DNA from: Candidatus Zixiibacteriota bacterium
Lineage (GTDB): Bacteria; Zixibacteria; MSB-5A5; WJJR01; JAJRUJ01
Assembly: GCA_024277855.1 (NCBI GenBank)
Contig: JAJRUJ010000087.1
Coordinates: forward strand, 1 to 64,000
Direction: 5' to 3'
Length of the DNA stretch: 64,000 bases
Position 1 is the first letter of the stretch; every line of letters starts with the position of its first letter. Below are positions 6,315 to 64,000 of the stretch, piece after piece. The notes under the pieces were generated by a model that saw only the letters and a list, made by a program, of their open reading frames with translations, had not been told where the DNA came from and made no database searches. Made by a program: the position numbers and the translations under genes.

Positions 6315-7541
6315 TTAGTATTCCTGCCAGTGACGACGCACATTGACCAGCAGACCGATCATTACCCAAAAAATGACGAGTGAACTGCCGCCGTAGGAAA
6401 CGAATGGCAGAGGCAAACCGGTGACCGGAGCCATCCCGACTGCCATGCCGATATTGACCAGCATCTGAAAGCCAATGACCGCCAGAATACCACCGGCCAG
6501 TGATCGGTTGAAATTATTGCGGGGCATGGAACCGATCGAGACAATGTGCCACATCAGCAGAGCGAATAGCCCGATAATAATCATCGCCCCGAATAAGCCG
6601 AATTCCTCGCCGGCCACCGAAAAGATAAAATCGGTATGCCGCGCCGGCAAAAAATCCAGGCGGCTCTGGGTGCCCTGCAGGAACCCCTTGCCAAACAGCC
6701 CACCCGAGCCGATGGCGACTTTCGATTGGATAATTTGATAACCGGCGCCGGTGGGGTCGGTGCCGGGGTCAAGAAAGGTTAATATCCGTTTTTTCTGGTA
6801 ATCCAGCAATCGGCCCCAAATCAAGGGCGTGATGATCCCGAAAGCCAGGTTAGCCGCCACCACACCGACCGCGGTCCACAAATTCGGTCGGACATGGTTG
6901 AGTGCCACTAACACCAAAAGGAAGAAAATGATCCAGCTGATCCAGTGAAAGGCGAACACCAAACTTAACAACGGCGACAGAGTCAAAAACAGAACGAGGG
7001 GAGAGGCCCCCGCCCAAAACAGCATCGTCACGACAACCGCCCAAAACACCAGCGATGTTCCTAAGTCCGGCTGTTTAAGGACCAATCCCGAAGTAACCAA
7101 CACCAGAATCATAATTCCGGAGATTGCGCGCGGCGAGAGCACCGGTCGTTTCAGGTAGGCCAGATAACGTGACAAGGCGAAGATAACCGCCAACTTGGCC
7201 AGTTCCGACGGTTGGATATAGGCCGGTCCCAGTGAGACCCAACGCGCCGCACCGGCTTTTCGCCCGACAATAATCAGGAGAATCAAAATGGCCCAGATCC
7301 CCACCAGATAGACATAGGCAAACACCTCATGCATCCGCAACGGGATCAATACCGCAAAAATAAAGGCAACCAGCGCGACACCCAGCCAAATTATCTGGCG
7401 CAAATAGAGGTTACGGAAATATTCGCCCGTTGAATTGTGTTGAGAGCTATAGATCAGGATAATCCCGATAATCGACAGGGCAAGAGCACTGCCGATCAAC
7501 ACCGGATCATAATCGCGAATTTTGGCCCATACCTGCCGCAT
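6315..7541 (-). CDS. rodA: Rod shape-determining protein RodA (SEDS)
   Basis: SEDS family: GFLQGTQSRLDFLPARHTDFIFSVAGEEFGLFG, GMAVGMAPVTGLPLPFVSYGGSS. Confidence 0.95.
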   Translation of the reverse strand: MRQVWAKIRDYDPVLIGSALALSIIGIILIYSSQHNSTGEYFRNLYLRQIIWLGVALVAFIFAVLIPLRMHEVFAYVYLVGIWAILILLIIVGRKAGAARWVSLGPAYIQPSELAKLAVIFALSRYLAYLKRPVLSPRAISGIMILVLVTSGLVLKQPDLGTSLVFWAVVVTMLFWAGASPLVLFLTLSPLLSLVFAFHWISWIIFFLLVLVALNHVRPNLWTAVGVVAANLAFGIITPLIWGRLLDYQKKRILTFLDPGTDPTGAGYQIIQSKVAIGSGGLFGKGFLQGTQSRLDFLPARHTDFIFSVAGEEFGLFGAMIIIGLFALLMWHIVSIGSMPRNNFNRSLAGGILAVIGFQMLVNIGMAVGMAPVTGLPLPFVSYGGSSLVIFWVMIGLLVNVRRHWQEY

Positions 7542-7799
7542 ACCGGTATCTCCTTCGCCCGCTTGCAGAAGGAAAACTTATGCCGCAGGCCGACCGTGTC
7601 AACATAATTAACCAAATGTCCGGATACGGGTTGCCGGTTATCCTCACCGGTTAAATGCAACTGGCCGCATATTGAAGTACAGGTTGATCGACTTCGGGTG
7701 TCCGTACCAGCTGTTTTGATACTGTTTTTTTTCGCCCGATTATGTCAATATAACGTATAATACGATGGACAGGAACGGGATTGAGATGGGAGCAATGTC

Positions 7800-9209
7800 A
7801 TGCGGATGCGTTCAATCCGATCAATTATGTTGGCGGTTGCCTTGGTCATTATAACTGTGCCGGCTGTTTCGGCCTTGACCGTTGAGGAAATTGTTGACCT
7901 CTGTCGCGCGGGGTACGGAACCGAAGATATCCTGGAGTTTACCCGGACACTGGGCGTTGACCAACCGCTTGAGGTTGACGACATCGATAAACTTGATGAG
8001 GCCGAGTGCCTCTCCGAGTTGACCGAGGAACTGGCCCGCCTCTATGGCACCGATGAGGCCCGCGAATATGTTGCCAATACCGAGGTCGAGGGTGATGAGC
8101 ATAACGATGATTATAACTATGAATATGATTACGACTACGATTACGACTACGGATATAATAATCCCCATTCGACAGTGACTGTCTATGCCGGCTGGGGCCG
8201 TCCCTATGGTTGGGGGCGAGGTTGGAACTGGGGTTGGGGCATCAACACCTTTTGGGGGGACGACTGGTATTCACCATGGTGGGACATTGGTTATGGCTGG
8301 GGTTCGCCCTTTTATTCCTATTGGTACGATCCCTGGGATTATTACTGGTCGCGGCCCTACGGTTATTACTCGTACTATCAATGGGGGTATTGGCCGGGGT
8401 ACTATGACGGCGGCTATTATGGAAACTCCGGTCAATCCTACCGATATAAAAATGCCCATCTGAAAGCGAGCAAGACTCGTGGTCGATATGCTGCCGTGAA
8501 TAGGGTAAGCAAAGACCAGCGGGCCTATCGTACGAATGCGGCGCGTGCGGTGGTCCAAAAATCGTATGCCTCGCGTGATCGGGTGACCAAACGCGCCACC
8601 GCCTACGGGAAAACCACGACTTCTCGGAAATCAAAAGCCGACTATCGCGTGACCACGTCCGGAAAGAGTGGGAAATCAAGTACTGTCCGTAATCGATCCA
8701 CGTCGGGAACCTCTGCCGGGACAACCCACAAGAGCGGTATTTCGACCAGCGGAAAGAAACGCGTTGTTAAAACAAACAAGACTTCGGCCGGCAAGAACCC
8801 CGGGACGACAAGAGTCAAAACACAATCCGACGATTCCGTATCTCCCGGAACGACCAAAAAATCCGGGAAGGCCGTGAAGAAAACCCGACGTTCCCGGTCC
8901 CGCAGCAATTCGATCACTCGTCCGAGTTCGCGGCGCGCCTCACACGGTGATTCGTCATATCGTCGTTCGCCGCACTCATCGTCGCGTTCTTCGCGCGTAA
9001 CCAATCACTCGAGCTATCGACGGACCACGGCAGCGGCACGCGCCTCGACCGGCCGAGCAGGCGGTTACTCGCGGAGTTCGTCGTCGGGATCGTCGGTCAG
9101 CCGATCAGGCCGTTACTCGCGAAGTTCATCGTCGGGATCATCCGGGAGTCGGACCAAATCGGCAACGGGTTCGTCGGGCAGTTCGTCTCGTCGTTCTGCG
9201 CGCCGGTAA
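7800..9209 (+). CDS. Secreted low-complexity protein: signal peptide, acidic helical/DY-repeat region, W/Y/G-rich middle, S/R/K-rich tail
   Basis: MRMRSIRSIMLAVALVIITVPAVSA signal peptide; DYDYDYDYDYGYNN; GWGRGWNWGWG...YYSYYQWGYWPGYYDGGYYG; YSRSSSSGSS repeats. Confidence 0.8.
   Translation: MRMRSIRSIMLAVALVIITVPAVSALTVEEIVDLCRAGYGTEDILEFTRTLGVDQPLEVDDIDKLDEAECLSELTEELARLYGTDEAREYVANTEVEGDEHNDDYNYEYDYDYDYDYGYNNPHSTVTVYAGWGRPYGWGRGWNWGWGINTFWGDDWYSPWWDIGYGWGSPFYSYWYDPWDYYWSRPYGYYSYYQWGYWPGYYDGGYYGNSGQSYRYKNAHLKASKTRGRYAAVNRVSKDQRAYRTNAARAVVQKSYASRDRVTKRATAYGKTTTSRKSKADYRVTTSGKSGKSSTVRNRSTSGTSAGTTHKSGISTSGKKRVVKTNKTSAGKNPGTTRVKTQSDDSVSPGTTKKSGKAVKKTRRSRSRSNSITRPSSRRASHGDSSYRRSPHSSSRSSRVTNHSSYRRTTAAARASTGRAGGYSRSSSSGSSVSRSGRYSRSSSSGSSGSRTKSATGSSGSSSRRSARR
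9066..9161 (+). repeat. Two copies of a 48-bp tandem repeat encoding YSRSSSSGSS[V/G]SR..
   Basis: tactcgcggagttcgtcgtcgggatcgtcggtcagc / tactcgcgaagttcatcgtcgggatcatccgggagt, period 48 bp. Confidence 0.85.
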
Positions 9210-9216
9210 GATCGGT

Positions 9217-11097
9217 TTAACGATTTTTGAGCGATCCGGGCATCGCCGATTCGTCAAAGGAAACTATTGGCCTTGTCAAGGTGGTATCTGGAGTGGGTAG
9301 TTCTTCCGACGGGGACATAATCTCGGGATAATATTTCTGCAGATATGCTTCGATAATCTTGTTCGCAATCGGCGCGGCGACTGTCGAACCGTGGCCGGCG
9401 TTCTCAACAATTACCGCCACCGCTATTTTGGGGTTTTCTACCGGCGCAAAAGCGGCGAACCAGGCGTGTTCATTGCCGTGCGGATTCTGGGCGGTCCCCG
9501 TTTTACCGGCCATCGTATAGCGTTTGTCGGCCAGCCAATGGGCGGTCCCATGCTTGTCGGCAATTACCGCCGTTGCCCCGTCGATAATCACATCAATCGT
9601 CTGTTGCGAAAACGGTAACGCAAAGGATACCTCCGGCGCGGGCAATTCCCACTCCCGTCGGGGTATCCGATATCCGCGCAGAAAATGCGGCCGCATCACC
9701 CGGCCCCGATTGGCCAATCCGGCAATAAACTGGGCGATTTGCAGCGGGGTGGTTAACAATTCACCCTGGCCAATCGCCAGATTCGCTGCCAGTGTCTTTG
9801 TCCACCCCCGTTTGCCGTACCGGCGATTATAGTAATCGACATCGGGCACCAGGCCGGGGTCTTCGTCGGGCAAGTCAACACCGGTTTCGACACCGAACCC
9901 GCAGGCAGAGGTATATTTCGCCCAGGTGTCGATACCCATCTTAAGCCCGAGTTGATAAAAATATGTATCACACGACTGGGCGATTGCGTCCACGGCGGAC
10001 AGACTGCCGTGCCCGGACGCTTTATGGCAGCGGAAATACCGATTGCCGATCTGCAGACCGCCGTAACAGGGTTTGAATGTTGTTCCCGGATCAATAATCC
10101 CCTCTTCCAACCCGGCGCCGATTACCCATAATTTCGCAACCGATCCGGGTGGATAGAGGCCCTTGGTGGCTCGATTCATCAGCGGTCGCGCTGGATCGGC
10201 GAGCAGGGAATTCCAATCGTCCTCCGGAACGACACCGGAGAAAAGATTGGCCGAAAACCCCGGATGATTGTTAAAGCAGAGGATTTCGCCGGTGGACGGC
10301 TCGATGGCGACTACCACGCCCGAGCCATACTCGGCCAACAACGAATCAGCCAGGTCTTGCAACTCGACATCGACAGTCAGCATAATCACCGATCCCGGCT
10401 GAGGCGGTTCGTCGGGCACGCCGGGCATCGGACCGATCACCCGCCCCAATGCCGAAACTTCGAGATAGCGATACCCGTCGGTGCCGCGCAGGTGATCGTC
10501 ATATTCTTTTTCCAGTCCCGCCGCGCCGGTATACCCGCCGGGCCGCAAACCTCGTGACTTGCGCCGCGCAATGTCCCGGGCCGTCAGTTCGCGCGTGTAA
10601 CCGAGAAAATTCCCGGTCCAGGGTTTTTCGATATATCGTCGGGCGGCGGCAATCTGGAAAATAACTCCGGGGTAGTTCTCGATATGTTCTTCAAAATAAC
10701 AAATCGATTTGAAGTCCGCGTCACGGCGCAAGGCCACCGGCCAATACGGCATCGACCGACCGGCGCTTACTTTTCGCTGGAATTCCTCTTTCTCGGTGCC
10801 CAATTGCCGGGCCAGACGGTCGAGTACTTCGGTGTGACGGCGGATTTCCCGGGGGACAACCGAGATCAAAAACGAGGGCCGGTTACCGGCAATCTCGACA
10901 CCCTGGCGATCGACAATCGGCCCGCGCAGCGCGCTTTCGGGACTAACCCGCATGCGGTTTTCTTCCGAGACTGTGAGGTAATAATCTCCACGAAATATTT
11001 GCAGATAGACCAGACGGCCGCCGAGGAGCAAGACGAGTGCGAGGATTAGAACGCGGAGTACGACTCGGCGGGTCTGTGGTCTGACTCGTTCCGGCAT
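9217..11097 (-). CDS. mrdA: Penicillin-binding protein 2
   Basis: Transpeptidase motifs YPPGSVAKLW (SxxK), AGKTGTAQNPHG (KTG), PBP dimerisation domain; Met at 11097. Confidence 0.93.
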   Translation of the reverse strand: MPERVRPQTRRVVLRVLILALVLLLGGRLVYLQIFRGDYYLTVSEENRMRVSPESALRGPIVDRQGVEIAGNRPSFLISVVPREIRRHTEVLDRLARQLGTEKEEFQRKVSAGRSMPYWPVALRRDADFKSICYFEEHIENYPGVIFQIAAARRYIEKPWTGNFLGYTRELTARDIARRKSRGLRPGGYTGAAGLEKEYDDHLRGTDGYRYLEVSALGRVIGPMPGVPDEPPQPGSVIMLTVDVELQDLADSLLAEYGSGVVVAIEPSTGEILCFNNHPGFSANLFSGVVPEDDWNSLLADPARPLMNRATKGLYPPGSVAKLWVIGAGLEEGIIDPGTTFKPCYGGLQIGNRYFRCHKASGHGSLSAVDAIAQSCDTYFYQLGLKMGIDTWAKYTSACGFGVETGVDLPDEDPGLVPDVDYYNRRYGKRGWTKTLAANLAIGQGELLTTPLQIAQFIAGLANRGRVMRPHFLRGYRIPRREWELPAPEVSFALPFSQQTIDVIIDGATAVIADKHGTAHWLADKRYTMAGKTGTAQNPHGNEHAWFAAFAPVENPKIAVAVIVENAGHGSTVAAPIANKIIEAYLQKYYPEIMSPSEELPTPDTTLTRPIVSFDESAMPGSLKNR

Positions 11098-43024: not shown

Positions 43025-44011
43025 ATGGCACGAAAACGGACCAGTCGGATTTCAATCTGGGCACGGATTGCCCTGTTGATCCCTCTGCCGGTCATTGCAT
43101 TCCTGATCTATTTGTCCGGAAACCAACCGCGTGAAGGATTATTTGTCTCCACCGCCTTCTCTGACCAACCGCCGGCCACGATCCTGACGACGCCGGTATC
43201 ACTACCCAATAAACTCCCCGAGGCAGATTTCCTGCTGGTGGATACAATCCAGTTTTACGATGCCGACAACCTCTACTTGAAGATCGACGGACATGACGCC
43301 GCTTTTTTCCGTTTCGGGTTTGTCTCGCTGACCTTCGCCGACTATCGTGGTCCCGACAGCGCCCTGGTCGATCTCTATGTCTATCGGCTGAACCGCCGCG
43401 AGAACGCCCTGGGGGTCTATGCTGCTGAGCGTTCCGAAGATCGTGCAAACCTCCAAATTGCCGATACAGGATATCGTTCCGGCGGGGCCACGTTTATCCA
43501 GCGTGGTCCATTTTATATTCAAATCATCCCGGAACCGCCCGGCGTGGTTACCGATAAAGCGGCGGCCGAGATTGTCGAAATCCTTTCAAAACTTATTCCC
43601 GCTTCGGCCGCACCCCTGGCCCAATTGGCTCGCTTTCCCGCCGGATCGCGGCTCGAAAACTCTGATGGGTATTTCCCCGATAATGCATTCGGCACTGACT
43701 TTGTCGGAGACATTTATACTACCGAGTACAAAACGACCGGTAACCCGGTGACGGCCTTCTATCATCAGTCCGACTCGGCGCGCGCAATGTTCGACCGCTA
43801 CCGACTATTTCTCGATGGCAACGCCGAAAAAGACCAACCGCTCACCATTAACGGTGTTCACGTGTATCGCTATCTCGATTATGGTGAGTTGGCCTGGATC
43901 TTCACCGTTGATGACATTTTTGCCGGTCTGTCCGGAGAGGCAAAGACCGAGGACGCAATACAACTCGTCACCCAATTGATTTCGTCGTTTAATCGGGGAA
44001 GAGCGGAGTAA
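43025..44011 (+). CDS. DUF6599-like membrane-anchored protein
   Basis: N-term TM; DADNLYLKIDGHDAAFFRFGFVSLTFADYRGPDSALVDLYVYRLNRRENALGVYAAER. Confidence 0.65.
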   Translation: MARKRTSRISIWARIALLIPLPVIAFLIYLSGNQPREGLFVSTAFSDQPPATILTTPVSLPNKLPEADFLLVDTIQFYDADNLYLKIDGHDAAFFRFGFVSLTFADYRGPDSALVDLYVYRLNRRENALGVYAAERSEDRANLQIADTGYRSGGATFIQRGPFYIQIIPEPPGVVTDKAAAEIVEILSKLIPASAAPLAQLARFPAGSRLENSDGYFPDNAFGTDFVGDIYTTEYKTTGNPVTAFYHQSDSARAMFDRYRLFLDGNAEKDQPLTINGVHVYRYLDYGELAWIFTVDDIFAGLSGEAKTEDAIQLVTQLISSFNRGRAE

Positions 44012-44018
44012 CCGGGCA

Positions 44019-44975
44019 ATGCAGCGCAGGCAATTCCTCATCCAGACTGCAAAGGCCTCTGCTATGGCGTTAGGGGTCACCGGCGCCGGCATCTGGCTGG
44101 CCGGTCGCAAGGCGACCGAATCCGATCGTGTGTTTGCCATCCCCGACTATTCGATCCCGCAGGATCGTCTCACCCGGAATTTTGTCGTTGTGCGCGGCAC
44201 CAATCCAGCGGCGATGGTCACTGCCGGGATGACCGAGTTGGGCGGTATCGGCAAATTTATTTCTCCGGGAGACCGCGTGTTGGTCAAACCCAATGTCGGT
44301 TTCGACCGACCGTCGTTTATGGGGGCAACCACCTCACCTGAAGTCACTGGAGCAGTGGTGCGCGCCGTTTTGGCGGCCGGCGCCGCCCGGGTGGTCGTAT
44401 CGGATAACCCGATCAATTCTCCCGCGGCCAGTTTTGGCCGCTCCGGGATCGGAACTGCGGTCGCGCAGGCCGGCGGGGAGGTTCGCTATCTGTCCGAGAA
44501 TGATTTTCGGGAGACTCATATCGGCGGCGTGGCCCTTGGACAATTCACCACCGCCGCCGCGTTGCTGGGTGGCGTGGATAAAGTAATCGGCCTGCCCACC
44601 CTCAAAGACCACAACCTCTCGGGTATGTCGTTTGCCATGAAAAACTGGTATGGGTTGCTGGGCCTTGGCCGCAATCGCTTCCATCAGGACATCCAGAATG
44701 TGATCGCCGATTTGGCGTTTATGATCAAGCCGACATTGGTCATCGGCGACGCCACCCGCATCCTGACCAAAAATGGTCCGACCGGTGGCTCGCCCTCCGA
44801 CGTTAAACCCGGCGGCACGCTCATCTTCTCCACCGACGCCGTGGCGGTTGATGCCTTCGGCCGTGAGATGCTCAAACGGTCTGCGGATATCTGCCGGTAT
44901 ATCCAACTGGCCGCCGACCGCGGGATCGGCACTTCCGACTACAACAGTCTGGGCTATATGGAGGTGCACGTCTAA
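44019..44975 (+). CDS. DUF362-domain protein with Tat signal
   Basis: MQRRQFLIQTAKASAMALGVTGAGIWLAG; VLVKPNVGFDRP...VGLPTLKDHNLSGMSFAMKNWYGLL. Confidence 0.88.
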   Translation: MQRRQFLIQTAKASAMALGVTGAGIWLAGRKATESDRVFAIPDYSIPQDRLTRNFVVVRGTNPAAMVTAGMTELGGIGKFISPGDRVLVKPNVGFDRPSFMGATTSPEVTGAVVRAVLAAGAARVVVSDNPINSPAASFGRSGIGTAVAQAGGEVRYLSENDFRETHIGGVALGQFTTAAALLGGVDKVIGLPTLKDHNLSGMSFAMKNWYGLLGLGRNRFHQDIQNVIADLAFMIKPTLVIGDATRILTKNGPTGGSPSDVKPGGTLIFSTDAVAVDAFGREMLKRSADICRYIQLAADRGIGTSDYNSLGYMEVHV

Positions 44976-46495
44976 TGCGCACCATCCGAGCGATTTATCA
45001 GTTGTTTTTCCTCGGGTTGTTCCTGCTTTTGCTGTATTGGGCGAGTTACGACCGGTTGGCCGGTTATCCGGTGCGGCTTTTCCTCGATACCGATCCGCTG
45101 GTCGCGGTCGGCACGGTACTTTCAACCGGTACTCTATATCGCGCGCTCTGGTACGCAATTCCCCTTCTTGTCCTGACTATTTTCCTCGGACGGTTCTATT
45201 GCGGCTGGATCTGTCCGCTGGGTGCGCTCCAGGATTTTGCTGCGCTGTTACGCCGCTCCCGGTTGAAAAAAAATATTCATGATAACGACTATCGCCCGAT
45301 CTATCGTTTGAAATACCTGATCCTGACCACTTTTTTGGTCATGGCCGCCTTTGGAATGCTGCAAATCGGCCTGCTCGATCCACTGGTCCTGCTTACGCGG
45401 GCGATGACTACGTCGGTTCTCCCATCTATTGACCGGGGTGAGAGTTGGCTGTTTCTCACCTCTCGTGAATTTGACCTGGGTTGGATCGCCGGCCTGCTCT
45501 TGATCTCGGTCCTGATCGCCGCGGTCTACCGGCCGCGACTCTGGTGCAAATTGCTCTGTCCGCTTGGCGCCTTGCTGGGGGTTTTCTCCCGTTGGTCGAT
45601 TTTTCATGTTCGCCGCTCATTGGATAATTGCGATGATTGTCGGATCTGCGCGGCCAATTGCCCGGCGGGGGCCGAGCCGGATAAGAACCTGCGCAAATCC
45701 GAATGTATGCTTCTGTTAAACTGCCTGGAGACGTGCCCGTCGGGATCGATTTCTTTTGGCGTGATGAATGACCAGGCGCCGTTGCCGGTAGCCGGGCCGA
45801 ATCTGACTCGTCGTCGGATTGCCGGGGCTGCACTGGCTGGTTTGGCGGTGCCGCTGGTCTTCCGTTCGCGTCCTTCGATTGTCGATACACCAAGGCCCCA
45901 GCTTATCCGGCCGCCGGGATCGCTGGCCGAACCGGATTTTCTCGCCCGTTGTATTAAGTGTGAAGAATGTATGCAGATCTGCCCAACCAATGTCCTGCAA
46001 CCGTCGATGACCGAGGCGGGGATTGAGGGGTTCTGGACCCCGGTGCTTAAAAACACCATCGGCTATTGCGAAGTCAACTGTGTGCTCTGCGGAGAGGTTT
46101 GTCCCACCGGGGCAATCGACAAAATCACCCTCGACCAAAAACAGGGGAGAGGTGAATTCAAGGGCAAACCAATTGTCCTCGGTACCGCTTTCTTTGACCG
46201 CGGCCGGTGCCTCCCCTGGGCGATGAACCGGCCATGCGTTGTCTGTCAGGAAGTCTGTCCGACCTCGCCCAAAGCGATCATTACCGACGAGGTGGTTGTC
46301 TATGAGGGCGATAAACGTATCGAATTAAAACGACCCCGGATTGAACCTGATCTTTGCATCGGTTGCGGTATTTGTGAACACGAATGCCCGGTTGTCGACC
46401 GCCGCGCAGTCTATGTCACCTCGGTCGGCGAAACTCGCTCAGAAAAAAATCGGATGATTCTTGATACACCGGTATCTACTGGAGGTAAATCATGA
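44975..46495 (+). CDS. Membrane-bound polyferredoxin (NapH/CcoG/YccM-like 4Fe-4S protein)
   Basis: TM helices with CGWICPLGALQDF and CKLLCPLGALLGV; several 4Fe-4S motifs e.g. CIKCEECMQICP, CEVNCVLCGEVCP, CIGCGICEHECP. Confidence 0.93.
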   Translation: MRTIRAIYQLFFLGLFLLLLYWASYDRLAGYPVRLFLDTDPLVAVGTVLSTGTLYRALWYAIPLLVLTIFLGRFYCGWICPLGALQDFAALLRRSRLKKNIHDNDYRPIYRLKYLILTTFLVMAAFGMLQIGLLDPLVLLTRAMTTSVLPSIDRGESWLFLTSREFDLGWIAGLLLISVLIAAVYRPRLWCKLLCPLGALLGVFSRWSIFHVRRSLDNCDDCRICAANCPAGAEPDKNLRKSECMLLLNCLETCPSGSISFGVMNDQAPLPVAGPNLTRRRIAGAALAGLAVPLVFRSRPSIVDTPRPQLIRPPGSLAEPDFLARCIKCEECMQICPTNVLQPSMTEAGIEGFWTPVLKNTIGYCEVNCVLCGEVCPTGAIDKITLDQKQGRGEFKGKPIVLGTAFFDRGRCLPWAMNRPCVVCQEVCPTSPKAIITDEVVVYEGDKRIELKRPRIEPDLCIGCGICEHECPVVDRRAVYVTSVGETRSEKNRMILDTPVSTGGKS

Positions 46496-47727
46496 GACGC
46501 CGTGAATTCATTCGTTCTGTCGGTCTTGGCGCGGCAGCTGTCGCCTCTGCCGGCGTTGTTGGCTGTACGAAAAGCGATGTGCCGGCAACAAAAGGGGAGA
46601 CCGCGGCCCGGACTGCCGACCAGGCCATCAAGTCTTATCGCGAAATCGGCACGACCGGTTTGAAAATGTCCGACATCTCCATGGGGTGTGGGCAACTGGA
46701 TAACCCGTATGTTGTCGAACGGGCCATTGATGTTGGTATAAACTATTTCGATACGGCCCCCGATTATGGCAACGGTCAATCTGAAATCACCCTGGGTAAA
46801 GTCTTCAAAGATCCCGCCAAGCGCGACAAATGTATCATCTGTACCAAAATTTGCGAGCGGGGCGCCTACGGTCAGCATTTAAACGTCGGCTCATCACCGG
46901 CCGAGGTCGTCGCGGTGGTCGAGGGTAGTCTCAAACGACTCAACACCGACCATATTGATTTGATAATGGTCCACGCCATCGGTGAGCGTGAAAATGACTT
47001 GCCCCGGCTGACCGATCCCGGAATGCTGGAGGCCGTAGCCCGGCTTAAAGAACAGGGCAAAATCGGTCATCTCGGTGTTTCCTCTCATGGCCCGCATTGC
47101 ATGGAGGATTGCCTGACCGCGGCAATCGAATCGGGTCATTACGCCATGTTCATGCCGGCTTACAATTTTGTTCAGCATGACCGGCTGGGTGAGGTTCTGC
47201 AGAAGGCCCGGGAAAAAGGTGTCGGGGTGGTCGCCATGAAAACACTCAGCGGCGCCAAGGAAGAAGACCTCAGCCGTTTCCAGGCGGACGGAAGCGATTT
47301 GGCTGCGGCTGCCTTCAAATGGGTTTTTACCAATCCGGCGGTAAGTGGTTTGGTGGTGACAATGCGTACAAGCGCCGAGGTGGACAAGTATGCCGCCGCT
47401 TCCGGCAAGCGGTTTGCCGCTGAGGATCAAGGCCTCCTCAATCAATATTCCACAGAAATCTGGTCTGAGTATTGTCGTACCGGCTGCGGCGACTGCTTGC
47501 CCCATTGCCCTCATGGTGTCGCCATTGCCGAGATCATGCGCTATGATATGTATTTCACCGCTTACGGCGATCATTATAAGGCAATGAAAGGGTTCCATGA
47601 TCTCCCGCCGGCGATGAGACCGAATGCCTGCCGCAACTGTTCAGCGCCCTGCCTGCAGGGCTGCGGCTACAATCTCGCTATCCGCGACCGGCTTCTGGAA
47701 GCTGCCGACCGGCTGCAGTTTGTCTAG
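46492..47727 (+). CDS. Exported aldo/keto reductase-family protein with C-terminal Fe-S-type cysteine motifs
   Basis: MRRREFIRSVGLGAAAVASAGVVGC (Tat + lipobox); AKR core YREIGTTGLKMSDISMGCGQL...INYFDTAPDYGNGQSE; C-term CRTGCGDCLPHCPHGV and CRNCSAPCLQGC. Confidence 0.92.
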   Translation: MRRREFIRSVGLGAAAVASAGVVGCTKSDVPATKGETAARTADQAIKSYREIGTTGLKMSDISMGCGQLDNPYVVERAIDVGINYFDTAPDYGNGQSEITLGKVFKDPAKRDKCIICTKICERGAYGQHLNVGSSPAEVVAVVEGSLKRLNTDHIDLIMVHAIGERENDLPRLTDPGMLEAVARLKEQGKIGHLGVSSHGPHCMEDCLTAAIESGHYAMFMPAYNFVQHDRLGEVLQKAREKGVGVVAMKTLSGAKEEDLSRFQADGSDLAAAAFKWVFTNPAVSGLVVTMRTSAEVDKYAAASGKRFAAEDQGLLNQYSTEIWSEYCRTGCGDCLPHCPHGVAIAEIMRYDMYFTAYGDHYKAMKGFHDLPPAMRPNACRNCSAPCLQGCGYNLAIRDRLLEAADRLQFV

Positions 47728-53023: not shown

Positions 53024-56000
53024 ATGAGAAAACTCGTTTTTCATCCGTTATTGTTCGCAATTGCGCCGGTCCTGCTGTTATACAGCCGAAATGTGACTGG
53101 ATTCTCTCCAACGGTAATCATCTCGCCGATCCTGGCGGTGGGCGGCCTGGTGTTATTGTGCTGGCTGATTGCGGCCTTATGCTTGAGAAATATCCGGAAA
53201 GCCGCAATCCTGATTTCATTTTATGTTTTGATGTTTGCATCGTTTGGCCACGTCTTCACGATCATCGCGTCAGTTTTCCTCTATGGTTTTCCGGATCCCG
53301 GTCTGCAGAAGGCCTTACTCCTCATCTGGTCGATTCTGCTGGTTGTCGGGACAGTCGTTTGTTTGAGGTTGGACTCCAGCCTGGACCGACTAACCCGCAT
53401 GTTAAACACCACCGGGACCATCCTGGTTGTCATCCCGGTTGTGGTCACCTCGTTTAACCTGTTCAATACGCGACGCCAACCCGTGACGGATTATGGTGCG
53501 GATTCCGTCGTTACCCCCACGGTCACCGGCGACAGTACTGGTTTCCCCGACATCTATTACATCATCCTTGACGGGTATGCGCGGGGAGATGTTCAGGCCG
53601 ATATCTATGATTATCCGCATTCCGATCTGCTGGATTCTCTGAAGCGCGCGGGGTTTTATATTGCCGGGCGGAGTTGCGCAAACTATTGCCAGACACTCCT
53701 GTCAATTGCATCGTCTTTAAATTTCCAATATCATGGTGACATCTCCAAAACACCGCCTAGTATCTGGGATAGTCGGGGTTTATTGCATCACAAAATCCTT
53801 TATAGCAGGGTCGTGGATTTTCTTCGCGGGGAGGGTTACCGCATAGTGGCTTTTGCGACGGGTTACTTTCCCGCGGAATTGCGCACGGCGGACGAGTTCA
53901 TTCAGCCGGAATGGGAGAGCTGGACCTTGAATGAATTCCAGAGCGGCCTGCTTGCGACCACAGTATTCCCTACAATTTTGAAAGTACTCGAAAAAATTCC
54001 GGTCGCCGGGAACAAGTTGGGCGAGATATTGTATGGTCGGCATCGCCGGACGATATTGCACACACTTGATCGCTTGGCTGATCTGCCAACAGATGACCGG
54101 CCTCGATTCGTGTTTGCCCATGTGCTTGCACCACATCCGCCATTTTTGTTCGATCAGGACGGCGGCGAGGTTGACTTCTCCGGTTTTGCCCGGCTCTTCA
54201 ACGCCTCGGACGGCAATAATCTTCACTATTTCGACCCCAATTTGGTGCGGGCGTACCTGAAGAATTATCGTGAGCAACTGGTTTTTATCGAGAAGAAAGT
54301 GATGGCGGCAATTGACGCGATTTTGACTCAGTCTCCGGTTCCGCCGATTGTCATCCTGCAGAGTGACCACGGTCCCGGCTCACGGCTGGATTGGGACTCG
54401 GCCGAACGGACCGATTGCAGAGAAAGATTGGGAATTCTCAACGCCCTCTACCTTCCCGATGGGGGAGACTCGTGTTTGTACCCGACGATTAGTCCGGTCA
54501 ATACATTTAGGGTCGTGTTGAATCATTACTTTGGGGAGGATTTGAAGTTATTGCCGGACAAAAGCTACTTCTCAACCTGGGCCGACCCGTTTCGCTTCAT
54601 CGATGTGACCGACAGGGTGTATCCGGTCGACAGCAGCGTCCCCACTCCCGGTTCGACAGAAAAACCGAAATTAGTGGCACTCTTGTTTCTGCTTGGTGGA
54701 ATTTCTCTTTTGCCCGTGGATTGGAGACCGTACTATGATAGTCGAACCCATCAGGATTGGGGGGAGCAGGACGTCATGTCGGCGAATCGCATCGAACAAA
54801 CCACTCCGATAATTACCCCCGGGACAATCCGGGTTTTCTGGATTGTCGTCGTCGGCGCGCTCCTGGGTGTCTTGGTTCTATATGTACCCTTGCCGATTCT
54901 CGCCGGCATCCTGGCAACCGTCACTATCGGGTTATTGATCCTGCATAATCCATATTGGGGGTTATTGGCTTATCTTGTTGTCTTTCTCGTGCGTCCCCAG
55001 GAGATCTGGACTTCGTTCGGTGGGCAGTTCCATATCGAAAAAGCCCTCGCGTTGGCCGTCCTGGCCTCGACTTTTGTCTCTCATAAAGTGCGCATCGAGA
55101 ACAAAATCGTCTTCTCCGGGACAACTTTCGGTGTACTGTTGTTCACCGGGGTTATTTTTCTGTCGGTGCCGCAGGCGATCTGGCGCGGGGGGGCGGTGGA
55201 TACCGCAATTGAATTTGCCAAAATTGCCGTCTTGTTCTTCCTCGTCACCCAGCTTTGTAACTCGCCGAGGCGTATTCGTGTGCTGGTTTGGGTGTTTTTG
55301 CTGTGCCATCTCTGGATCGCCGGCAGCACCATTTATAGTTATTACACCGACCCGGCCTACATCCGCATGGGTATTCAACGGGCCAAGGGACTGGCAATCA
55401 CCATGGGCAACCCGAACTCCATCGCCGCTTCACTGGCGTTTTCCCTTCCTTTTGCGCTGATGATGATCAAAGCTTATAAGAACCTCCTCGCCCGGACGAT
55501 ACTGGTGATTTTGGTCGGTCTTTCGGTCTATGGAGTTATTTTCACCGGTTCACGGTCGGGTATGGTAACCCTGATCGTCCTGGCCTTTATCCTGGCTTTT
55601 CGCTCACGCCATAAATTCCCGGCCTTAATCGTCACCGTGGGGATTCTCCTCGCCGTGTGGTCGATCATGCCCGATATGTATCAAAAGCGTTTCATGACGA
55701 TCTTTGGCGGCGAGGCCGAAGAAGGTGACCAGGCCGGTGCCACGGCCTCCGCGATGGGCCGCTTACGCGGGTTGCGGCTTGGCTTTAAGATGTTCCTCGA
55801 CCGGCCGATCCTTGGCGTCGGGGTGGGTAATTTTGCTATCGCCTGGCTTGGAACCTACACCATTGACGGCATCCATGACTGGTCGCAACCGCACAATATG
55901 TTTGCCCAGCTTATCTCTGAACTGGGGCTGATGGGCTTGATCTCTTTTGCCGTTTTCATCGTTATGGTCACTCGGCAATATGGCCGAGTGATGAGCTATC

Positions 56001-56203
56001 TGCATCGTTTTACCCGTCCGCCTCCCGATCTGAAAGCGCTGGAGGGCATTACCGGAGCAATAGGGGTAGCTTTGATCCTGTTGATGATCTCAGGGCTGTT
56101 CGGCCATAACTTATACCGGTACAACTGGTATTTCTTTGCCGGGATACTGGTGGCGATCGAAGCGGTCATCGTAAAGCGGGAGTCTGCGACAAGGACCGAT
56201 TGA
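53024..56203 (+). CDS. Alkaline-phosphatase-superfamily/sulfatase-like membrane protein fused in frame with an O-antigen ligase (Wzy_C-like)
   Basis: N-half DIYYIILDGYARGDVQ...FVFAHVLAPHPPFLFD...IVILQSDHGPGS; C-half RAKGLAITMGNPNSIAASLAFSLPFALMM...TGSRSGMVTLIVL...DRPILGVGVGNFAIAW; internal Met at 54776 with upstream ggggggagcagg. Confidence 0.75.
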   Translation: MRKLVFHPLLFAIAPVLLLYSRNVTGFSPTVIISPILAVGGLVLLCWLIAALCLRNIRKAAILISFYVLMFASFGHVFTIIASVFLYGFPDPGLQKALLLIWSILLVVGTVVCLRLDSSLDRLTRMLNTTGTILVVIPVVVTSFNLFNTRRQPVTDYGADSVVTPTVTGDSTGFPDIYYIILDGYARGDVQADIYDYPHSDLLDSLKRAGFYIAGRSCANYCQTLLSIASSLNFQYHGDISKTPPSIWDSRGLLHHKILYSRVVDFLRGEGYRIVAFATGYFPAELRTADEFIQPEWESWTLNEFQSGLLATTVFPTILKVLEKIPVAGNKLGEILYGRHRRTILHTLDRLADLPTDDRPRFVFAHVLAPHPPFLFDQDGGEVDFSGFARLFNASDGNNLHYFDPNLVRAYLKNYREQLVFIEKKVMAAIDAILTQSPVPPIVILQSDHGPGSRLDWDSAERTDCRERLGILNALYLPDGGDSCLYPTISPVNTFRVVLNHYFGEDLKLLPDKSYFSTWADPFRFIDVTDRVYPVDSSVPTPGSTEKPKLVALLFLLGGISLLPVDWRPYYDSRTHQDWGEQDVMSANRIEQTTPIITPGTIRVFWIVVVGALLGVLVLYVPLPILAGILATVTIGLLILHNPYWGLLAYLVVFLVRPQEIWTSFGGQFHIEKALALAVLASTFVSHKVRIENKIVFSGTTFGVLLFTGVIFLSVPQAIWRGGAVDTAIEFAKIAVLFFLVTQLCNSPRRIRVLVWVFLLCHLWIAGSTIYSYYTDPAYIRMGIQRAKGLAITMGNPNSIAASLAFSLPFALMMIKAYKNLLARTILVILVGLSVYGVIFTGSRSGMVTLIVLAFILAFRSRHKFPALIVTVGILLAVWSIMPDMYQKRFMTIFGGEAEEGDQAGATASAMGRLRGLRLGFKMFLDRPILGVGVGNFAIAWLGTYTIDGIHDWSQPHNMFAQLISELGLMGLISFAVFIVMVTRQYGRVMSYLHRFTRPPPDLKALEGITGAIGVALILLMISGLFGHNLYRYNWYFFAGILVAIEAVIVKRESATRTD

Positions 56204-61762: not shown

Positions 61763-64000
61763 TCACAACTGATATCTCGGTTCACGATACGGAGTTGTCA
61801 ACACATGACGATAGTATTCGTCATAGCGTTCAATCATTCCGGGCATTGTAAAATCGCGTTGTACCCGTGTCCGTCCCGCCTCACCCATGGTATGGGCCAA
61901 TTCCGGATTATTCAACAGCAGAAGCAGTTTTTCAGCAATATCTTTGGGGTCTTTGGGCCGCACCAGGTAGCCGGTAACTCCTTCCTCGACCGCTTCCCAG
62001 TTCGAGCCGACGTTGGTCGCTATTACCGGCAACCCGGCTGCCATATACTCCAGGATTGAATTGGAAAAACCCTCGGACAACGAGGTCAAAGCGGCCACAT
62101 CAAATAGGCGGAGGTAGCTGATCACCTTTGGGGTTCGTCCGACAAACCGTACCCGGTCGGCGATAGCACATTCCTCAGTCAGCTTTCGCAGGTCATCGAT
62201 CAACTCGCCGAATCCGAGTATTACAAAACCGGCGTCGGGGCGCTCCCGGGCGACCAGGCCGGCGGCCCTGATGAAGTACTCAACCCCCTTGACCGGCCGC
62301 AAATTGGCAACCAGACCAACCAGTGGCTCTTCCGGAGCAAAACCAAGGTCGGCCTTGGTCAATTCCGCCGTTTCGGCCGTGCTGTCAAAGGCCGTCGTAT
62401 CCACACCATTGTAAATCACGTTGATTTGCCGTGGACCGGCGCCCTCCAACTTTTGTGTCTGTTGTTTTACCGAGAACGAATTGGCCATAATCCGATGCGT
62501 GAGACGATTGATGATACTCATCGTCCACTTTTGCAAAACAGTCAGGGCGTGACCAAAATTGCGCCGGCTGGTAATAATCCGCGGGACTCGAGCCAGAAAC
62601 GCGGCCGTGACACCGACCACGTGAGCCGCCGGGAAAAATGTCTGGACGATGTCGATTTTCTCCCGGCGGAGGAAATGTGAAAAACGCAAAATGTTCAAGT
62701 AGGCCGTCGGCCGGCGAAATGAGGGTACCTGGAGTTCATAGATTCGGCAGGGGAGATTCAGTGAACGCAGCCAGTCCGACACGACAAAGCAGGCGAGGTA
62801 CAACTCGAACTGCTCCGAGGGCAATTGCCGCAGGAGGTTGACAACCTGCATCTCGGTGCCTGCCTCACCCTGCATCTCATCGATCAAAAACAATAGTTTA
62901 ATCTTCCCGGACCGGCCGGCCGGTGCCGGCCCCAGCGGATGCTGTCGGCGGCGTTTGAGCGACAACATCATCGGCGTCGTTTCGATAGCAAATAGTGAAC
63001 GCGAAAACCGGCCGTCACCGTGGGAGAGCATTTCCGCATTCATGTCGATTCGGCGCAAGGTGTACGGATCGGCCTGAGGATCCACTGTTCCGTAGGTGAT
63101 CGTAAAGCCGGTGTGATACCCGGCTTGACAAACCCGCTCGGCCACACGTTGATCGTAATCCCCATTGGGATAGGAAAAGGCCGTCGTTTCATGCCCGGTC
63201 AGTTCAGCCACTTGCCGGCGGGAAGTTTCAATTTCCAGGGTAAGCTCGTCATCGGGTATTCCCGGTAAAATGCGGTGATTTACCGCATGGGATCCGAAAT
63301 AAATGCCGTTCCGGGACATCTCTGTTACTTCCTCGGCGTTGAGAAATGACCGCCCGGTTGGCCGCGTTTGCGAATTGTTATACACGTAATCCAGGACGGC
63401 ATGGAGCGCTCGGTCGGCAAACTCGTTGTCGAGACCTTTGAGCCGGTCGACCGCCTCGCGCGTATAATACCAGACTCGGTCGTCCTTATCTTCCAGAAGA
63501 TCGAAAACGATATCCGACAGGATATGGGCTTCAAAGAAGAACGCGTCATTTCTGCGCCGTTCCCGCAACAGGCGAAACGCGGCGTAAAGTTCGTCCTGCC
63601 AGAAACGTCGGGGGGTACCGATATATGATGTCGGCAAAAATATCAGCGCGGGTAACCCATGTTTCTTCAATACCGGCCAGGCCAGGGTATAGTTGTCCCG
63701 CCAACCGTCATCGAAAGTAATCATGCACGAACGCGGAGGGAAGGGCTTTCGGGCAAGGATATGTTTTTCGAATTGTTCGTAGGACAACGGGTGGTAATCA
63801 TGGGCGATTAATTCCACAAAAGAATCGAATAGTTCCAGGGGGATCGATTGAGTCGCCGAGGCAAAAACACTTTCATCGGCGGGATCACTGATCCGATGGA
63901 ACGCAAACGCCGCGCAACCGTTTTTCCACCGGTTGAGCAGCGGTTTACTCCCGGTCAGCCGCAGTATTCCGGCCAGTCCGGTCTTGATCAGTCTTCCCGT
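61763..64000 (-). CDS. Polysaccharide deacetylase fused to GT4 glycosyltransferase (5' end beyond window)
   Basis: Open frame continues to base 64000 (TGRLIKTGLAGILRLTG...); NodB-like MITFDDGWRDNYTLAWPVLKKHGLPALIFLPTSYIGT, then GT4 LFLIDEMQGEAGTEMQVVNLLRQL...LRPVKGVEYFIRAAGLV...SLSEGFSNSILEYMAAGLPVIATNVG. Confidence 0.9.
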   Translation of the reverse strand, partial: TGRLIKTGLAGILRLTGSKPLLNRWKNGCAAFAFHRISDPADESVFASATQSIPLELFDSFVELIAHDYHPLSYEQFEKHILARKPFPPRSCMITFDDGWRDNYTLAWPVLKKHGLPALIFLPTSYIGTPRRFWQDELYAAFRLLRERRRNDAFFFEAHILSDIVFDLLEDKDDRVWYYTREAVDRLKGLDNEFADRALHAVLDYVYNNSQTRPTGRSFLNAEEVTEMSRNGIYFGSHAVNHRILPGIPDDELTLEIETSRRQVAELTGHETTAFSYPNGDYDQRVAERVCQAGYHTGFTITYGTVDPQADPYTLRRIDMNAEMLSHGDGRFSRSLFAIETTPMMLSLKRRRQHPLGPAPAGRSGKIKLLFLIDEMQGEAGTEMQVVNLLRQLPSEQFELYLACFVVSDWLRSLNLPCRIYELQVPSFRRPTAYLNILRFSHFLRREKIDIVQTFFPAAHVVGVTAAFLARVPRIITSRRNFGHALTVLQKWTMSIINRLTHRIMANSFSVKQQTQKLEGAGPRQINVIYNGVDTTAFDSTAETAELTKADLGFAPEEPLVGLVANLRPVKGVEYFIRAAGLVARERPDAGFVILGFGELIDDLRKLTEECAIADRVRFVGRTPKVISYLRLFDVAALTSLSEGFSNSILEYMAAGLPVIATNVGSNWEAVEEGVTGYLVRPKDPKDIAEKLLLLLNNPELAHTMGEAGRTRVQRDFTMPGMIERYDEYYRHVLTTPYREPRYQL

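Follow-up and report, generated by a model that had tools for sequence, protein, structure and literature searches.

Within the 64,000-nucleotide stretch of a Zixibacteria genome analysed here (the window), ORF analysis revealed four genes, all on the + strand and together spanning positions 43025-47727. They encode a DUF6599 protein (gene 1, 43025..44011, 328 aa), a DUF362 protein with a Tat signal (gene 2, 44019..44975, 318 aa), a membrane polyferredoxin that is a NapH-NapG fusion (gene 3, 44975..46495, 506 aa) and an Fe-S aldo-keto reductase (AKR) with a Tat signal, predicted to be a lipoprotein (gene 4, 46492..47727, 411 aa). Genes 1 and 2 are separated by a 7-bp gap, genes 2 and 3 overlap by 1 bp at a TAATG junction, and genes 3 and 4 overlap by 4 bp (ATGA); these coordinates agree with an initial annotation, made from the sequence alone, that had described four co-directional genes with the same junctions. 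The motifs that it had singled out (MQRRQFL, MRRREF...VVGC, CGWICPLGA, CRTGCGDCLPHCP and CRNCSAPCLQGC) were all located in the sequence.

The neighbourhood of the window is syntenic with that of a genome of the same family, G028. An upstream P5C dehydrogenase gene was considered as a module member and rejected, as it adjoins the module only in G028 and is absent from that position in G075. Consensus promoters (9 versus 3.5 in shuffled sequence) and terminators (11 versus 5.5) were about twofold enriched, mostly lying inside genes or on the opposite strand, and were set aside.

Gene 1 matches DUF6599 (Pfam PF20244, 5.6e-29, residues 71-246). The N-terminus of this family is hydrophobic in 74 of 80 relatives and lipobox-like in 24 of the 80, and from its sequence the protein is predicted to have an N-terminal membrane anchor followed by an extracytoplasmic part. 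Its low-confidence AF2 model (pLDDT 66) points to two repeated alpha/beta domains, and a comparison of the model with the PDB returned no significant match; a PsbP-like fold, indicated by weak matches of this low-confidence model, was set aside.

Gene 2 belongs to DUF362 (PF04015, 1.6e-43). Residues R3, R4 and F6, K90, P91 and N92, K196, H198, K208, N209, H222, D244 and D261 are each kept in at least 93% of 72 relatives, a conservation that includes the twin arginine (44025..44030, + strand) of the Tat-like RRQFL signal already recognised in the initial annotation. With an N-terminal RR, a hydrophobic stretch behind it and TatC encoded in the genome, the protein is predicted to be transported by Tat. 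DUF362 and the lactate racemase LarA share the Pfam clan CL0471 (PMC11770544), and DUF362 residues H198 and K208 align to the motif His and Lys of LarA. By hhalign the similarity is not significant (E 0.03-0.5, probability <2%), and the DUF362 profile found no match in the PDB. LarC is needed for the nickel-pincer cofactor of LarA, and larC is absent from eight near-complete genomes that all carry the DUF362-polyferredoxin pair (G015, G022, G026, G027, G033, G036, G038 and G053). We rejected a reading of DUF362 as a LarA-like nickel-pincer enzyme on these two grounds, the lack of significant profile similarity and the absence of LarC from many pair-bearing genomes.

The gene 3 product matches Fer4_5 and many Fer4 models in Pfam, in line with the CGWICPLGA-type motif and the several 4Fe-4S sets that had been noted in it. 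Its first half matches NapH/MauN (2e-21, residues 2-261) and its second half NapG (1e-22, residues 305-482), with scores far below the equivalog cut-offs for both NapH (80 bits versus 269) and NapG (76 bits versus 234). An RRR stretch (R279-R281; 45809..45817, + strand), invariant in seven aligned relatives, precedes the fifth hydrophobic segment, which is predicted to be a Tat-dependent TMD5; an internal RR followed by a hydrophobic stretch recurs in 72 of 77 relatives. The combination of a NapH part, an internal RR before TMD5 and a NapG part with cluster motifs marks gene 3 as a dual Sec/Tat polyferredoxin.

Gene 4 matches Aldo_ket_red (PF00248, 7.7e-35) and, weakly, Fer4_9. Its AF2 model is a TIM barrel (pLDDT 84) for which Foldseek retrieved AKR14A1/YghZ and L-galactose dehydrogenases, so that Pfam, model and structural search agree on the AKR barrel proposed initially. 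The segment from the Tat motif (RR, residues 3-4) to the lipobox cysteine C25 lies at 46498..46566 (+ strand). The RR is invariant in six aligned module AKRs and present in none of 12 cytosolic Fe-S AKRs; together with the hydrophobic stretch that follows and the TatC encoded in the host genome, it predicts Tat transport. The Tat signal and lipobox ascribed to gene 4 are thus both present, with the lipobox a Zixibacteria trait (the window, L002 and L093) and not a module-wide one, as the aligned Nitrospirota and deltaproteobacterial orthologues lack it.

To place these features in context, we compared 96 AKRs: 23 from clade 1, to which gene 4 belongs, 6 sister rows, 55 from a second exported clade (clade 2), which also pairs with DUF6599 and retains the cofactor loop considered below, and 12 cytosolic Fe-S AKRs. 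The phylogenetic tree separates exported from cytosolic AKRs by a 100/100 branch, and clade 1 is supported at 100/99. Y92 occurs in all 96 sequences, and the other tetrad residues and eight cysteines occur in nearly all. Within clade 1, the tetrad D87, Y92, K119 and H161 is kept in 23 of 23 members, as are the two C-terminal Fe-S cysteine sets, C328, C332, C335 and C339 (47473..47511, + strand) and C380, C383, C387 and C391 (47629..47664, + strand), a conservation that bears out the Fe-S cysteines first seen in gene 4. The segment 46846..46878 (+ strand) holds the catalytic Lys119 and two clade-specific residues, Cys121, two positions past the lysine, and His129; all three are invariant in clade 1 (23/23), and the cysteine and histidine are present in 4 of the 6 sister rows.

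The groups differ in the PG...N loop after the last strand, which we take to be the usual, if not universal, NADP site, just as we assume the customary roles of the tetrad residues. At residues 288-300 (47353..47391, + strand), the usual site of this IPG...EN cofactor loop, gene 4 has VVT...Y, and [VI]-[TS] and [YF] replace PG...N in 23 of 23 clade-1 AKRs. P289, G290 and N/D300 are found in 51, 50 and 49 of the 55 clade-2 AKRs and in 10, 12 and 10 of the 12 cytosolic enzymes. The initial annotation had named a non-exported AKR with a normal NADPH site as one outcome that would speak against it; what we observed is an export signature and an abnormal loop. The replacement may remove nicotinamide binding. 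It is not proof that NADP(H) binding is lost, and the retained tetrad is a requirement for hydride chemistry; we thus describe the clade-1 enzyme as AKR-like in fold and tetrad, and it may or may not use NAD(P)H.

These residues bear directly on a closed cycle, in which the AKR would fold and bind NADP(H) tightly before its export and would couple two half-reactions, either alone or recharged through its Fe-S clusters. The tetrad conserved throughout clade 1 and the PG...N/D loop retained in clade 2 fit such a cycle, and the Tat export of an NADP-containing enzyme has a precedent in the glucose-fructose oxidoreductase of Zymomonas, reportedly established by Halbig in 1999 (cited in PMC7317946). 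That enzyme resembles gene 4 as a nicotinamide-type oxidoreductase exported by Tat; unlike the AKR, it has a Gfo/Idh/MocA fold and no Fe-S clusters. The loop replacement in all 23 clade-1 members speaks against the closed cycle, which also leaves unexplained why AKR and polyferredoxin share a distribution, as described below; we consider it rather unlikely.

We found the four families co-localised in several phyla and in two gene orders, which answers the check for co-occurrence across phyla that the initial annotation had proposed and goes against the other outcome that it had named as refuting, a lack of co-occurrence elsewhere. The order DUF6599-DUF362-polyferredoxin-AKR occurs in three Zixibacteria genomes: that of the window, that of L002/L092 (same contig) and G075, where the genes are divided between two contigs. 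A rotated order, AKR-DUF6599-DUF362-polyferredoxin, is found at many Nitrospirota loci and in one deltaproteobacterial genome. Scanning with gene 4 recovered all four genes at L002, in the window order, and at L003 (a deltaproteobacterial MAG) and L004 (a Nitrospirae MAG), both in the rotated order; the polyferredoxin of L004 is cut at a contig end, and a matching remainder lies on another contig. The rotated order recurs in L205-L208 and at further Nitrospirota loci, among which DUF362 and the polyferredoxin fall outside the fetched stretch at L234, L236, L237 and L239, and other sequence separates DUF6599 from DUF362 at L238 and L240.

The AKR shares an operon with the polyferredoxin at only part of the loci, and solitary AKR copies are found at L005, L006, L007 and L008. 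The solitary copies at L005, L006, L008 and L009 were dismissed as counter-evidence, since these genomes also contain another AKR gene that does lie ahead of DUF6599, DUF362 and the polyferredoxin; the L007 genome gave no polyferredoxin or DUF6599 match.

Gene adjacency revealed that the module is composed of two pairs, DUF362 with the polyferredoxin and the AKR with DUF6599. DUF362 directly precedes the polyferredoxin at 58 of 61 Zixibacteria loci, the three exceptions being two loci cut by a contig end (L153 and L184) and one interrupted by a run of N (L131); DUF6599 lies near the polyferredoxin at 37 of the 61. Of 24 Nitrospirota loci, 21 have the AKR directly followed by DUF6599 on the same strand, as do 10 of 19 loci from the G119 phylum, and a clade-2 AKR adjoins DUF6599 on the opposite strand at 12 of 37 Zixibacteria loci. 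Duplicate loci were removed from these counts, which are approximate per clade because the clades were split by score and not by tree. The earlier view of DUF362 and DUF6599 as accessory parts is thereby refined: each belongs with its own partner, and the two are not interchangeable. Together with the co-occurrence of the families and the export signature and altered loop of the AKR, this gives the initial interpretation partial support.

The same association is seen at the level of whole genomes. In Nitrospirota, a clade-1 AKR (E <1e-170) occurs in 13 of 198 genomes, and precisely these 13 and no others have a full-length clade-1 polyferredoxin (present in G120 as two parts, each on its own contig; Fisher p=1.3e-20); in Zixibacteria the polyferredoxin is present in 27 of 29 genomes with a clade-2 AKR versus 40 of 90 without (p=2.4e-6), both p-values being too small because genomes within a phylum share ancestry. 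In G277, G261 and G281, AKR and polyferredoxin lie on different contigs and both are kept. Chance or an inherited gene order with no functional link could account for the synteny between the window and G028, but two gene orders in different phyla, unlinked genomes that keep both genes and the gene overlaps speak against it; it is very unlikely, because the Nitrospirota AKR and polyferredoxin sets are identical.

The pairing also raises a broader role, in which DUF362 and the polyferredoxin would serve redox needs outside the cytoplasm more generally (such as maturation or repair, in connection with AmmeMemoRadiSam), with the AKR as one of several clients. Of 119 Zixibacteria genomes, 67 have the pair, most of them lacking a clade-1 AKR, and AmmeMemoRadiSam radical SAM genes, for which the literature searched gave no function, flank 18 loci. 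Against this stands the identity of the two Nitrospirota sets, and a general service of this kind appears quite unlikely.

The reading that we prefer, at a probability of roughly 0.4, is a quinol-linked extracytoplasmic redox module of two pairs, in which electrons would pass from quinol through the polyferredoxin to the exported AKR; it fits best with NapGH homology and the shared distribution. At the membrane, the polyferredoxin would draw on the quinol pool for electrons, with quinol proposed as donor by analogy to NapGH, and its 4Fe-4S chain would carry them to the periplasmic face. There, the two predicted C-terminal 4Fe-4S clusters of the AKR would receive them by Fe-S to Fe-S transfer, and a carbonyl-type substrate would be reduced in the TIM barrel. 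Since the NADP loop of clade 1 is replaced even though the tetrad is kept, the barrel probably needs no exchangeable nicotinamide; we infer this absence, as well as the transfer and its direction. A more specific version is tentative and somewhat doubtful: an AKR devoid of nicotinamide, whose tetrad would be driven by quinol-pool electrons delivered by Fe-S clusters and whose new active site would include Cys121 and His129.

The same wiring could also run in reverse, with the exported AKR oxidising an alcohol or sugar and the polyferredoxin delivering the electrons to the quinone pool. AKR chemistry is reversible, the direction is not fixed by sequence, and L-galactose dehydrogenases are among the best PDB sequence matches of the AKR. 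Characterised NapGH relatives, however, act as quinol dehydrogenases (PMC5449189), and the reversed flow seems unlikely.

The component families and the fusion polyferredoxin are already known. The literature searched, which covered few subscription papers, yielded no description of the AKR/DUF362/DUF6599 combination, of its paired structure or of the loop replacement in an exported AKR clade, consistent with the initial statement that no characterised pathway was known for this combination. AKRs are a textbook nicotinamide family. Because the exported clade keeps the tetrad, has its NADP loop replaced and matches a NapGH-type ferredoxin wire in distribution, our results suggest that a cytosolic reductase fold has been re-wired to the respiratory chain. 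If true, a nicotinamide-free AKR would be a new way of running AKR chemistry outside the cytoplasm, and the module provides DUF362 and DUF6599 with a first set of partners that can be tested, and links both to AmmeMemoRadiSam genes.

Compared with known systems, gene 4 resembles the cytosolic Fe-S AKRs in its barrel and tetrad, the same eight C-terminal cysteines and M249-K250; these differ in lacking a Tat signal, in their normal PG...N loop and in forming a separate clade (100/100). Gene 3 resembles a dual Sec/Tat polyferredoxin studied in deltaproteobacterium MLMS-1, likewise a NapH-NapG fusion with a twin arginine before TMD5, in which the region after TMD5 is exported by Tat (Tooke et al. 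2017, PMC5449189). That study noted homologues in Nitrospirae; it treats membrane insertion only, and the terms 'DUF362' and 'aldo' are absent from its text. Among the neighbours examined, none was identified as NapA. Like NapGH, gene 3 combines a NapH-like first half with a NapG-like second half, and a membrane ferredoxin with Tat-dependent periplasmic clusters, but it does so in a single fused protein, partnered with DUF362, DUF6599 and an AKR instead of NapA.

The genes surrounding the adjacent DUF362 and NapH-NapG polyferredoxin genes of Zixibacteria include, in a number of loci, members of the AmmeMemoRadiSam system. The AmmeMemoRadiSam radical SAM gene lies near this pair in 18 loci (family assignment tested with TIGR04337 in locus L130), where its companions are a second DUF362 gene and a gene for a spermidine-synthase-like membrane protein, frequently together with a MEMO gene. 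Loci carrying this gene set include, among others, L129, L130, L134, L138, L148, L155, L156, L159, L162, L165, L167, L168, L169 and L171. In L130 (8914-10053) and L129 (8251-9390), the radical SAM protein begins MDRRFFLRC..., a twin arginine followed by a hydrophobic stretch; judged from sequence, this apparently Tat-like start is unexpected in a SAM-dependent enzyme.

In two Nitrospirota genomes, a MEMO family gene (L236:3863-4669; L237:2328-3170; assignment tested with TIGR04336 in L236) precedes the AKR-DUF6599 pair upstream. Four further loci (L095, L098, L100 and L108) carry a tandem pair of clade-2 Tat-AKR genes, convergent with DUF6599 and adjoining a gene for a predicted exported hydrolase-like/TPR protein.

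Downstream of the module in the Zixibacteria locus L002, the opposite strand encodes a protein of 970 aa (7240-10152) that contains 44 cysteines and appears to carry a signal peptide. In the window, a 1059-aa ORF (53024-56203) matches Wzy_C (1.5e-19) and, in the same frame, weakly a sulfatase family (3.9e-6), and in a 684-aa ORF (61763-63817) a polysaccharide deacetylase domain is fused to a glycosyltransferase group 1 domain.
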